This document shows positions 20,219 to 26,733 of a DNA stretch of 27,920 bases, piece after piece (positions within the stretch are counted from its first letter, which is position 1; each line of letters opens with the position of its first letter). Position numbers and translations under genes: made by a program. Source of the DNA: Bolinopsis microptera (taxonomy: Eukaryota > Ctenophora > Tentaculata > Lobata > Bolinopsidae). The notes under the pieces were generated by a model that saw only the letters and a list, made by a program, of their open reading frames with translations, was not told the DNA's origin and made no database searches. The stretch is taken from NCBI RefSeq assembly GCF_026151205.1, contig NW_026971855.1:1-27920 (forward strand), read 5' to 3'.

Positions 20219-20366
20219 ATGGGTAACTTTTTGAGCAACATAGTGCATCTTTTTAAAGGGGTCCCCGACGCTAAACTCCTGATGTTGGGACTGGACGCTG
20301 CCGGGAAGTCAAGTATTTTGTACCAGCTTAAACTTAACAGATTCATTGGGACCGTCCCAACCGTTG
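20219..20366 (+). CDS. Arf family GTPase, alternative first exon 1a (divergent)
   Basis: Encodes residues 1-49 plus the first base of codon 50. It begins MGNFLSNIVHLFKG, with Gly2 available for N-myristoylation and an amphipathic helix. Then come DAKLLMLGLDAAGKSSILYQ with the P-loop GLDAAGKS, and half of switch I (GTVPTVG), which keeps the Mg-binding threonine. The exon ends gttg|gtatgt, a good donor in phase 1, and no exon 2 occurs before the next first exon. Compared with exons 1b and 1c it lacks the conserved KKEMRI block and has S for T in the P-loop and N-R-F-I-G for G-E-I-V-T. Joined to the common exons it would give a 181-residue Arf with a hybrid nucleotide site. It could instead be an Arl-type paralogue that lost its own 3' exons. 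No stop or splice defect is seen. Confidence 0.8.
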
Positions 20367-20409
20367 GTATGTCTGGAATGTGTTGTTTTGTGTGTAAGTT
20401 GTTTTGTGA

Positions 20410-20520
20410 AGCTCGTGTCACGTGTGGTGATGTGGCTTGTCACGTGGTGATGTGACGTGTCACGTGTGGTGATGTGGCGTGTCACGTGTGGTGATGTGAT
20501 GTGACACGTGTGGTGATGTT
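20410..20520 (+). repeat. E-box minisatellite between Arf exons 1a and 1b
   Basis: About five imperfect 21-22-bp units of (t)cacgtgtggtgatgtggcgtg. Each holds CACGTG (20419, 20441, 20461, 20483, 20505). It sits about 50 bp after the exon 1a donor and about 260 bp before the exon 1b start, so it is both intronic for 1a and promoter-proximal for 1b. Confidence 0.85.
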
Positions 20521-20779
20521 GTGTGATGTTTTATACTCGTCACTCACTTCACCAGTAATCCAATCCTTTCATTGACACTAATCACCACATCCGATTAATG
20601 TATAAAATTGGTTACAATACTTTTACCGGACACACACCGACCTAACAAAGACAAATGAATCTAACTCTATTCTGACGAACTCAACACCTCATCTCGGAAT
20701 GACCACGACTCTACAACTTGATATAATGTTACCTAATTAAACAATTAACACATTATCTAATTGATAGTAGTGCCACATT

Positions 20780-20927
20780 ATGGGTGGAATGTTCGCTAAA
20801 CTGTTCTCCGGCTTGTTCGGCAAGAAAGAGATGAGAATATTGATGGTTGGTCTAGATGCTTCCGGTAAAACTACCATTCTTTACAAGCTGAAACTTGGAG
20901 AAATCGTCACTACTATCCCCACCATTG
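20780..20927 (+). CDS. ARF1: Arf GTPase (Arf1-like), alternative first exon 1b
   Basis: Encodes residues 1-49 plus one base of Gly50, with canonical Arf1 numbering: [21 protein letters not shown]-loop GLDASGKT (24-31), Lys30 and Thr31, then TTIPTIG with switch I Thr48. Gly2 is the myristoylation site; Phe5, Leu8 and Phe9 face the membrane in the N-terminal helix of the family. The exon ends attg|gtaagt, phase 1, matching the acceptor at 25230. Spliced to exons 2-4 it gives exactly 181 residues, the length of Arf1. Arf1 recruits COPI and adaptors to Golgi membranes when GTP-bound. One oddity is Ser28 where animal Arf1 has Ala in GLDAAGKT; exon 1c has the same change. An inverted first-exon order or a separate gene is excluded by the absence of another exon 2 before 1c. 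Confidence 0.93.
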
Positions 20928-22157
20928 GTAAGTTTTATTTAAAATATTTTGTTTGAAGTTTTATTATTTAAGGTATTTTGTTTGAAGTTTATTGGAATTT
21001 TGAGTAACGCTCTTGATCAGATTTGAGCAAGTTTTCAGTCCAAGTTCTTATTTAAAAACTTAAGTACGTAACTTCTAAAACTTGCAGCAAAGCTCATGAT
21101 AATTTCCTCACTCGAAATTATCTTTCAAACTTAATTTAAAGTTTAAGTAGGAACATGATATTCGATACTATATAATATAAATGATGTCAGCACAGCTCCA
21201 GTCTGCCCAGAAAATTTATCACACACTTTTTTGTATCACACTGTGTCACTTAGTGCGTATTTGTTGTGCCCACCATTATTATGTTGCTGCTTTTTACTCT
21301 AAATATTTACTTTCGGTACTTTAATATTATGAGGCATATGAGTTTATACTGTCAATATGTCACCACCTTCAAAGTCAGTATAATGAACCTCCATTTCTCA
21401 CTTGTCACGATATTTATTACCTTTAAACATTAAGATGACAGTAATTGACAGTTGACAATTTGAATCCTTACCAGTCTGCCGACAACCAATTTTTAACCGT
21501 GTAAAAACCGAGATGGTTTCAATAATGAATTAAAAGTCCTGTTAAGTTGACAGTTAACCTGTTTAACTGTGTGTAAGTTTCAGTGTTATTTCAACTGTCT
21601 ACTGCCTCTCATATATTATGGTGGTATATGTTGACTGTCAGTGTCCAGTTGCAGTTATACTTCGTTGCGGTTTTAATTCTGGCGAACTTGTCAGATACTC
21701 TTAAGGGTTAATTATAGGTGGAATTAGTTAGGAGTAATTAGTTAGGAATAATTAATTAGGAGTAATTAGTAATTAGTAAGGGTAATAGATCTGATTACTA
21801 GTTATTACTACTGGCGGGGAGGTGGGCAATATGTTTTCAAAGTGGTTTCTGATTGGATAATATCTGTCACGTGTTAGAGAGCATGTGGTTTACCTCTCCA
21901 CCAGTATCCAGATATATTATTCATTTGATTGATTTTCCGTTCGATTCGTTAATAGCGTAATTCTGATTCTGAGAAGTTCACAATATTTTATCAGCCCTCT
22001 CAGTTTATTATATTGCCTTATGTTGATGATATTTATTAAGCTCAATTGAGAATATTCAGTCTCAATCGAGATTTTTTATTCTACAACAAATCGTAACCTT
22101 ATCCTTGTATTGAAGCCTGTAGAATAATCTTAAAATAATTTCTGAAATAGCACCAAA
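20928..22157 (+). other. Intron after exon 1b / upstream region of exon 1c
   Basis: No exon seen. It contains an AT-rich tandem-like run of aattagttagga units (21718-21780) and, at 21810-21905, a foldback of actggcggggaggt with acctctccaccagt (12 of 14 paired) around an inverted CCAAT (21852-21856) and a CACGTG (21868-21873). This could be the exon 1c promoter or a small foldback element. Confidence 0.4.
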
Positions 22158-25229: not shown

Positions 25230-25340
25230 GATTCAACGTGGAGACAGTCGAATATAAGAACATCAGTTTTACTGTGTGGGATGTAGGCGGTCAGGATAAA
25301 ATCAGACCTCTGTGGAGACATTATTTCCAGAACACTCAAG
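25230..25340 (+). CDS. ARF1: Arf common exon 2 (interswitch and switch II)
   Basis: The acceptor ttcacccag and the donor caag|gtaat bound 111 nt, phase 1 at both ends. It encodes [20 protein letters not shown] and then [16 protein letters not shown]: the interswitch, the DVGGQ Mg/gamma-phosphate motif with the catalytic glutamine, and switch II. All three first exons end in the phase this exon needs, and it is the only exon of its kind in the window. The residues are those of class I/II Arf (VEYKNISF and YFQNTQ rather than the VTYKNVKF and YYTGTQ of Arf6). Confidence 0.97.
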
Positions 25341-25589
25341 GTAATATTTTGTCCGTTTTAATAATGGACATTCTTTCAACAGTGATTTCTATTTTTATTT
25401 TAAAATAAAGATTCAGTTTCGTTTAAAACTAAACTCGTCAATGAAAGATCAGTTTTCAGTATCATGAAAACTGTACTTTAGGAACTTCGGTGAGGTGGAA
25501 AATATTTAAATATACATATCACAAAATAGCACTGATTTGTCTAATTTGGTGTCCAATATTCAGGGTGAAACTTACATTTCTTGCCCCAG

Positions 25590-25714
25590 GTTTGATATTT
25601 GTGATAGACAGTAACGATCGAGAGCGTATAGGTGAAGCTCGGGAAGAACTCGGCAAAATGTTGAACGAAGACGAACTTAGGGACGCTGTACTTCTTTGCT
25701 TCGCCAACAAACAG
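25590..25714 (+). CDS. ARF1: Arf common exon 3
   Basis: The acceptor ttgccccag and the donor cag|gtacct bound 125 nt, phase 1 to phase 0. It encodes [34 protein letters not shown] and LLCFANKQ, which includes the NKxD guanine-specificity motif (the Asp is supplied by exon 4). Cys replaces the usual Val in LLVFANKQ. An upstream AG (attcag, 25562) could act as an alternative acceptor but would break the conserved reading. Confidence 0.97.
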
Positions 25715-26571
25715 GTACCTGTTTATTTTGTAACAACTAGCTATCCTGAGCGAGTGTACTAAGTATTTGTGTGTAGTTGATGTGGACGAGATTGACACGT
25801 GTAAGAAAATCGATGAAACTTGTATTTTGTACAAATGTATATAGAGCTGTGTAAAGTTGAACACCTGTGGTATTGTGGGTCAGGATGTCGCAGGTACTAT
25901 TAAAGGCTTGTGTCAGTCAACATATGGGGACTAATCGAGGGCGTCGACCGTCTCCTGCGTAGTGTTTACGTAGTCGGCCGGTCTCGATTTTATAAAACGG
26001 TCTTCTTTCATTGTCGTTGCGCTGGATAAATTGTATATCATCAGCATTTACGGTTTCGCGCGCAGAGGAAATTAAGCCGCGCGTTTCGCCAACTCATCAC
26101 TGCGTACGTCATTTTCAATGGCAACTAGCAGTGTCATTTTAAAATTCGTGGCAGCTTGAATTTAAAGATCGATTTCCGCGTAAGCTTAGATCACTTAAAG
26201 TTTCTAATGAATATGTGTGTAGACTTTAGAGACTCTCACAAACTTAAACGCTGTGCTAACTCCTCGGTGTGCATATTAAATCTCCCAAACATTCATTTAT
26301 CACACGTCAACGTTCTTGTGTCAGATCGAATTACATAATTTTGTTCTCTGGATCCACTGAATGTTCCGTGTCCACTAATTATATGGTTACTACCGTGGTT
26401 ACTGTGGTTACTGCCGCCAAACTACCACCATATCTAAGAAGTTGTATCAAGACTTATCTCCAAGATATCGCACTATTACAGCCTGTAACCTCAAAACAGA
26501 CAAGCTTCAGTAATAACCTTTAATCACTGTGAATGGGAATTAAACACATGACTTAACAAGACAATCTTCAG
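25715..26571. other. Arf intron 3
   Basis: An 857-bp intron between gtacct and tcttcag. Open frames here (for example 26269-26523) carry no recognisable motif. A CG-rich patch (gtcgaccgtctcctgcg..gtcggccgg, 25940-25981, and gcgcgc at 26057-26062) recalls the GC-rich repeats further left but does not match them. Confidence 0.5.
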
Positions 26572-26733
26572 GATCTGCCTAACGCTATGAACGCTGCTGA
26601 AGTGACAGACAAGCTGGGACTCCATGCTCTCAGGAACCGAACATGGTACATCCAAGCCACATGCGCTACCAGTGGGGACGGACTATACGAGGGCCTCGAC
26701 TGGCTGTCAAATCAGCTCAAAAACAAGAACTAA
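26572..26733 (+). CDS. ARF1: Arf common exon 4 (C-terminus)
   Basis: Begins after tcttcag and encodes [39 protein letters not shown] and [14 protein letters not shown], then TAA at 26731-26733. The [15 protein letters not shown] region is the G5 SAK-type loop and C-terminal helix of Arf. Exons 1b+2+3+4 sum to 546 nt (181 codons plus stop), so no exon is missing. Confidence 0.97.

Follow-up and report, generated by a model that had tools for sequence, protein, structure and literature searches.

The contig NW_026971855.1 of the ctenophore Bolinopsis microptera (assembly GCF_026151205.1) carries an Arf gene in which three complete coding first exons in tandem (heads 1a, 1b, and 1c) precede one set of downstream exons (exons 2 to 4, the tail). 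The window, that is, the whole stretch of DNA analysed, is this entire contig (27,920 bases; hereafter C96). All three heads begin with ATG-GGN and contain Gly2, a helix, a P-loop, and the switch I threonine, and each ends in a phase 1 GT donor that splits the Gly50 codon behind its first base; this base is preceded by 49 residues in 1a and 1b and by 48 in 1c, and the interswitch begins downstream of the heads. The three donors match the one acceptor at 25230 exactly in phase and codon, and the conceptually joined products are stop-free, with 181 (1a), 181 (1b), and 180 (1c) amino acids. Re-translation reproduced exactly the coordinates, ATG-Gly starts, phase 1 donors, and product lengths of an initial annotation of this DNA, and the amphipathic helix, full P-loop, and switch I threonine that it ascribed to each head are present in all three translations. 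Its description of the first exons as complete is a fair one, with heads that run through residue 49 or 48 and the first Gly50 base. A tblastn search of the window with the three products found no tail-like piece outside the six exons (best stray match, E = 2.9), in agreement with the single set of exons 2 to 4 described there.

The products of 1a and 1c, both of which were submitted to Pfam, match PF00025 with 246 and 264 bits, respectively. Among solved structures the 1a product scores highest against ARF1 (328 bits), followed by ARF3 (317), ARF4 (291), ARF5 (289), ARF6 (255), and ARL1 (195), and ARF1 fills the top 13 places, including one fusion, in the best 60 of 892 matched solved structures. 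On these matches the gene is a class I Arf (Arf1 group) of a ctenophore. Head 1a was also considered as a displaced ARF6 exon and rejected; an exon which we take to be ARF6-like is present elsewhere in the assembly (contig C8, near 1,476,650).

Table 1 Exons and intron space of the Arf locus, in window positions
Feature	Positions	Strand	Content	Basis
Coding first exon 1a	20219-20366	+	Residues 1-49 and first base of the Gly50 codon	Translation, GT donor
Coding first exon 1b	20780-20927	+	Canonical class I Arf head	Translation, GT donor
Coding first exon 1c	22158-22302	+	One residue shorter, different helix	Translation, GT donor
Common exon 2	25230-25340	+	Rest of Gly50, interswitch, DVGGQ of switch II	AG acceptor, GT donor
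Common exon 3	25590-25714	+	Through ANKQ	AG/GT borders, in-phase open frame
Common exon 4	26572-26733	+	DLPNAMN... to stop TAA	AG acceptor, open frame
Intron space	20367-25229	+	1a to 1b, 413 bp; 1b to 1c, 1230 bp; 1c to exon 2, 2927 bp	

The locus is probably one Arf1-group gene in which three coding first exons serve as mutually exclusive alternatives before one constant tail; the anatomy is seen directly in the DNA, and the splicing of 1a and 1b to 25230 is predicted from it. Each transcript would start in or just upstream of one head, the 5' splice site of the chosen head would be joined to the acceptor at 25230, and the other heads, without a strong 3' splice site close in front, would be skipped as intron. 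The resulting isoforms would share interswitch, switch II, nucleotide-base pocket, and C-terminus, and would differ in their Gly2-bearing, presumably myristoylated helices and, in the case of 1a, also in the P-loop flank and the switch I face. We favour a choice among heads by their own separate promoters, with spliced-leader trans-splicing as a possible means, and different membrane addresses or a different choice of guanine nucleotide exchange factors (GEFs) or effectors may follow. The swap of the first ~50 residues over a constant Arf body, which the initial annotation proposed, stands as the best reading; 1c plus tail is annotated as a protein in Mnemiopsis, and for 1a and 1b the joining is deduced from genomic DNA.

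Splice sites were scored with a simple home-made matrix and ranked against all GT or AG sites of the window. The donors of 1a, 1b, and 1c fall in the top 3%, 0.4%, and 0.3% of GTs, respectively, and exon 2 has its AG acceptor in the top 1.3% of AGs and its GT donor in the top 2.2% of GTs. Within 80 bases before the heads, the best AGs score -2.95 (1a), -1.94 (1b), and 0.16 (1c), compared with 4.54, 5.28, and 0.32 for the three acceptors of the gene itself and -0.06 to 2.39 for the same interval before six other Arf-family starts in the assembly; 1a and 1b lie below all six of these, and 1c lies above one. In variable-first-exon clusters, a usable 3' splice site is missing from the second and later variable exons. 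Because the donors of the heads rank high and the AGs close to them are poor, a transcript from 1a would be expected to skip 1b and 1c and join 25230. The nearest upstream ATGs, at 118 (1a), 54 (1b), and 132 (1c) bases, suggest short leaders, and the best-scoring AGs lie farther out, at 394, 224, and 154 bases, respectively.

The same three proteins would also result if their 5' ends were set by spliced-leader trans-splicing before 1a, 1b, and 1c on one or several long pre-mRNAs, which we consider unlikely, if well worth weighing. According to PMC8527503, leaders are present on at least 56% of Iso-Seq reads in Hormiphora, and the Mnemiopsis genome has 491 occurrences of the leader motif. Both neighbouring genes in the window have AGs 1 to 8 bases before their ATG (scores, 0.32 to 2.31), namely an intronless TRAP-gamma (SSR3) gene at 18468-19019 (PF07074; AGs 5 and 8 bases before the ATG) and a gene starting at 27442 (AG 1 base before the ATG), and these AGs are possible trans-splice acceptors. 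The latter gene resembles what we take to be succinyl-CoA ligase beta. Trans-splicing in front of the heads fits poorly, however, with the low scores of the AGs within 80 bases, both relative to the acceptors of the gene and, for 1a and 1b, relative to the other Arf-family starts, a soft argument given the home-made matrix, and with best AGs that lie past the upstream ATGs. The spliced-leader motif AATTTGAG gives no signal in the window, with 1 occurrence versus 2.25 expected.

A search of the assembly (264,652,675 bases in 232 contigs) revealed that the six exons recur in the same order, with intact splice dinucleotides, on the minus strand of the 16.35 Mb contig C13 (9,423,335-9,429,250). 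The two contigs are 98.4% to 99.6% identical in aligned blocks of window positions 17210-27920, with few insertions besides, and are best read as two haplotypes of one locus. None of the 839 coding bases differs between them, compared with 34 of 5,459 aligned noncoding bases (20000-26900); 5.2 coding substitutions would be expected (Poisson probability of none, 0.005). With only the heads counted, 2.7 would be expected (P 0.06), which is weak evidence for the heads by themselves, and the absence of haplotype differences in 1a and in the 200 bases upstream of it says little, with about one expected in each. A sequence of ~340 bp in the long intron (23697-24036), with two 65-nt direct copies at 98%, is absent from C13 and by this comparison is a polymorphic insertion.

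Searches with the heads and the tail recovered the same two loci. Head 1a has 17 matches in the assembly (E up to 1), comprising the two full copies in the window and on C13, the four copies of 1b and 1c at these loci, and 11 partial heads elsewhere with 42% to 59% identity; no second copy of 1a was found in the assembly apart from the C13 allele. The 20 matches to head 1c give the same picture. The tail has 42 matches, six of which fall on the three tail exons here and on their C13 counterparts, and the 36 others, at 30% to 92% identity, were not each tied to a gene. The nearest full tail elsewhere belongs to a second Arf1-like gene on contig C6, which encodes 184 residues with its own head and has a single intron at residue 62 (Arf1 numbering) and no Gly50 intron. 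Among 73 assembly matches read by eye, in which short exons may escape notice, no other Arf-family locus was seen to have several heads preceding one tail.

Two further candidates were rejected on these results: 1a and 1b as full tandem Arf duplicates with their own tails, as there is no extra tail in the window and the C13 locus has only three tail exons, and tails of 1a and 1b located elsewhere, of which the assembly searches with heads and tail show none. The initial annotation had named misassembly, or separate exons 2 to 4 for 1a and 1b elsewhere, as what would overturn its reading, and neither was found in the assembly. The window is a short contig of 27,920 bases only, and 1a and 1b might in principle derive from full tandem Arf genes whose exons 2 to 4 were collapsed or dropped. 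We regard such an artefact as extremely improbable. The much longer C13 shows an identical arrangement, just 413 bp separate 1a from 1b, and collapse of the 1b and 1c tails is hardly expected because these heads differ at 29% of their last 108 bases. More generally, the order of the six exons and their coding sequence are unchanged on C13, which makes misassembly and lost tails unlikely.

Related proteins exist for some of the joined forms. The annotated Mnemiopsis leidyi protein ACHWQZ_G019380 (P0022) corresponds to 1c plus tail, with 178 of 180 residues identical, a match that makes a close relative of Mnemiopsis the most likely source of the window. The 34-residue core of 1b is identical in P0024 to P0026, and P0024 and P0025, 181-residue products of contigs of ~1 kb, combine a 1b-like head with DASGK and a 95%-identical tail. 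These two appear to be of ctenophore origin and would weakly support 1b-tail joining. Shared tails with different heads are also present among 202 metatranscriptome proteins fetched (P0026/P0027; P0044/P0049; P0060/P0069/P0074/P0082); these sets were not used as support, since one joins a protist-looking head to animal-type tails and chimaeric assembly is likely. Two other marine metatranscriptome Arfs have unusual N-termini: P0028 has an odd start, presumably a translated Oikopleura spliced leader, and P0137 has its first 16 residues twice, flanking a foreign stretch. Inserts or skipped exons exactly after Gly50 occur in protein models of other animals (P0021, P0034, P0035, P0073, and P0106), and the exon border at this position looks ancestral in the animal Arf1 group. 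If the border is as old as these models suggest, the intron was probably already in place when the head exon was duplicated there.

The comparison of 1b with 1c indicates that both are old. In the last 36 codons, 34 residues are the same and 24 third positions have changed (pairwise dN 0.08; dS beyond the range of the method). Because residues were retained despite this synonymous change, 1b and 1c are read as old copies constrained as protein, and the codon comparison shows purifying selection on both for a long time. This bears on the alternative that the extra heads have a role in RNA only, such as that of decoy or regulatory first exons of short unproductive transcripts. The alternative is compatible with a joining of 1a and 1b to the tail that in B. 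microptera is predicted from DNA, yet conserved residues under saturated synonymous change argue for selection at the protein level, and a head on its own cannot fold into a GTPase; we consider this alternative very improbable.

Several observations weigh against three working first exons. The 1a donor is the weakest of the five in the gene. Among the best 120 of 533 protein matches, the sole entry named for Mnemiopsis is the 1c form, so that no Mnemiopsis entry there has a 1a or 1b head; none of the 13 matches to head 1a is named for Mnemiopsis either, and the closest of these (P0001) shares 26 of 34 core residues, so that 1a has no close relative among them. The divergence of 1a from the other heads is large (dN 0.46 to 0.53), and pairwise dN/dS, which blends two lineages, is compatible with partial relaxation of 1a. 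No repeat of at least 25 bases common to the regions upstream of the three heads was found. Further, the argument from weak acceptors is soft because one acceptor of the gene itself scores 0.32 and one of the six Arf-family starts falls below 1c.

The divergence, the weak donor, and the lack of a close database match would suit a gene with two working heads and a relic, in which 1b and 1c are used and 1a, an old duplicate, has completely or almost completely ceased to be joined to the tail; likewise, none of the 11 matched sequences that were read has a tail near that of this gene. Against such decay, 1a retains its ATG, 49 open codons, the P-loop, the switch I threonine, and an in-phase donor. 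In neutral simulations started from 1b (n = 3,000) and set to the 1a-1b nucleotide identity across the last 108 bases, open frame, ATG, GT, and P-loop were retained together in 0.07%. The haplotype identity of 1a and its upstream bases adds little weight. The constraint argument from these sequences is weaker for 1a than for 1b and 1c, and we consider a relic 1a improbable.

If all three heads are used as alternative first exons, the 1b and 1c isoforms would differ mainly in the membrane helix, and 1a would also have an altered switch I. Between 1b and 1c, the differences are confined to the amphipathic helix (residues 3-14) and a single later position, residue 37 (Leu/Phe). The Eisenberg moment of residues 3-13 is 0.61 (1a), 0.41 (1b), and 0.53 (1c), and the net charge of residues 2-18 is 0, +2, and +4, respectively. 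Head 1a has a divergent helix, the P-loop GLDAAGKS, and the switch I sequence NRFIGTVPTV (N40 R41 F42 I43 G44 T45 V46 P47 T48 V49); 1b has G E I V T at residues 40-44 and isoleucine at 46 and 49. Since 1a retains G24, D26, K30, Ser31, and Thr48, its product is expected, from what is known of the family, to bind nucleotide and magnesium. Residues 41 and 42 of switch I presumably contribute to the difference in specificity between ARF1 and ARF6. Only 1a is expected to alter the switch I face, because 1b and 1c differ solely at residue 37 outside the first 14 residues. The initial annotation had suggested possible diversity of recognition by GEFs or GTPase-activating proteins; for 1a this would agree with the altered switch I face, a change that is not expected between 1b and 1c. 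We give about even weight to a fuller proposal, in which one locus yields three Arf1 isoforms whose N-terminal cassette (anchor, flank of the P-loop, and a portion of switch I) is swapped while interswitch and switch II stay unchanged. In this proposal, the rebuilt switch I face of 1a (N40 R41 F42 I43 G44, V46, V49) responds to exchange factors or effectors, or to a membrane, different from those of 1b and 1c, and ctenophores have had the cassette for a long time.

The window and the other Arf loci contain further features. A tandem array of a 52-bp unit (~91 copies, 99% match) occupies window positions 9944-14678, and an open frame on the minus strand (1665-4730) has reverse transcriptase and endonuclease domains and is LINE-like; no Pfam family was matched by the adjoining minus-strand frames at 4731-5585 and 696-1607. 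The only intron of the C6 Arf1-like gene (L017 2313-2415) starts by repeating, at 97.5%, a stretch of 40 bp from exon 1 of the same gene (IPTIGFNVET region), as if part of this intron had arisen by a short tandem duplication. Another Arf-type gene, with a P-loop exon starting near Val23, is present in several copies on contigs C7 (18487954-18583147; three), C8 (12969275-12970770), and C34, the last apparently the second haplotype of the C8 copy.

Animal Arf diversity is normally spread over separate genes. The locus resembles metazoan Arf1-group genes in family and in length (180 to 181 residues), probably also in the Gly50 border to judge from the protein models of other animals, and differs from them in having three coding first exons per tail. 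Other small GTPases, such as Rab6A/Rab6A' and K-Ras 4A/4B, are diversified by duplicated exons within one gene; there an internal or the last coding exon is swapped, whereas the Arf locus would swap the first, with P-loop and membrane helix. The exchange of residues 1-49 over a constant body would amount to a natural domain-swap experiment, which could separate the roles of the N-terminal helix and switch I from those of the interswitch, switch II, and C-terminus. It suggests that in an early-branching animal phylum an old Gly50 intron turned the Arf head into a transferable module.

A literature search at the level of titles and listings, with subscription papers mostly outside its reach, found no paper that describes alternative coding first exons for an Arf gene. 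An Arf-family survey uses exon-intron structure to tell Arf1 from Arf4, and the strings 'splic' and 'ctenophor' do not occur in its main text (PMC8358228); the accessible parts of PMC12554972 and PMC7986045 hold nothing decisive on such first exons. The statement in the initial annotation that no such architecture is known in Arf genes agrees with this search, but the architecture as such has precedents. The vertebrate UGT1, GCNT2, and protocadherin alpha and gamma clusters contain tandem complete first exons, each joined to one constant exon set, and in UGT1 the variable exon encodes the signal peptide and substrate domain and the constant exons the rest (PMC1885805). Like these clusters, the Arf locus has several complete first exons of the same phase and one constant set. 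For UGT1 and GCNT2, PMC1885805 describes a promoter upstream of every variable exon, whereas for the Arf locus such promoters are predicted. It is also the mirror image of ctenophore gene clusters that share one 5' leader exon over different bodies, which the authors explain by trans-spliced leaders (PMC8527503); here, different 5' exons share one body. The unusual architecture is real and is of the variable-first-exon kind: unlike UGT1, GCNT2, and the protocadherins, which are not GTPases, this locus encodes a small GTPase, and the segment to be swapped would comprise its anchor, its P-loop, and a portion of its switch I.

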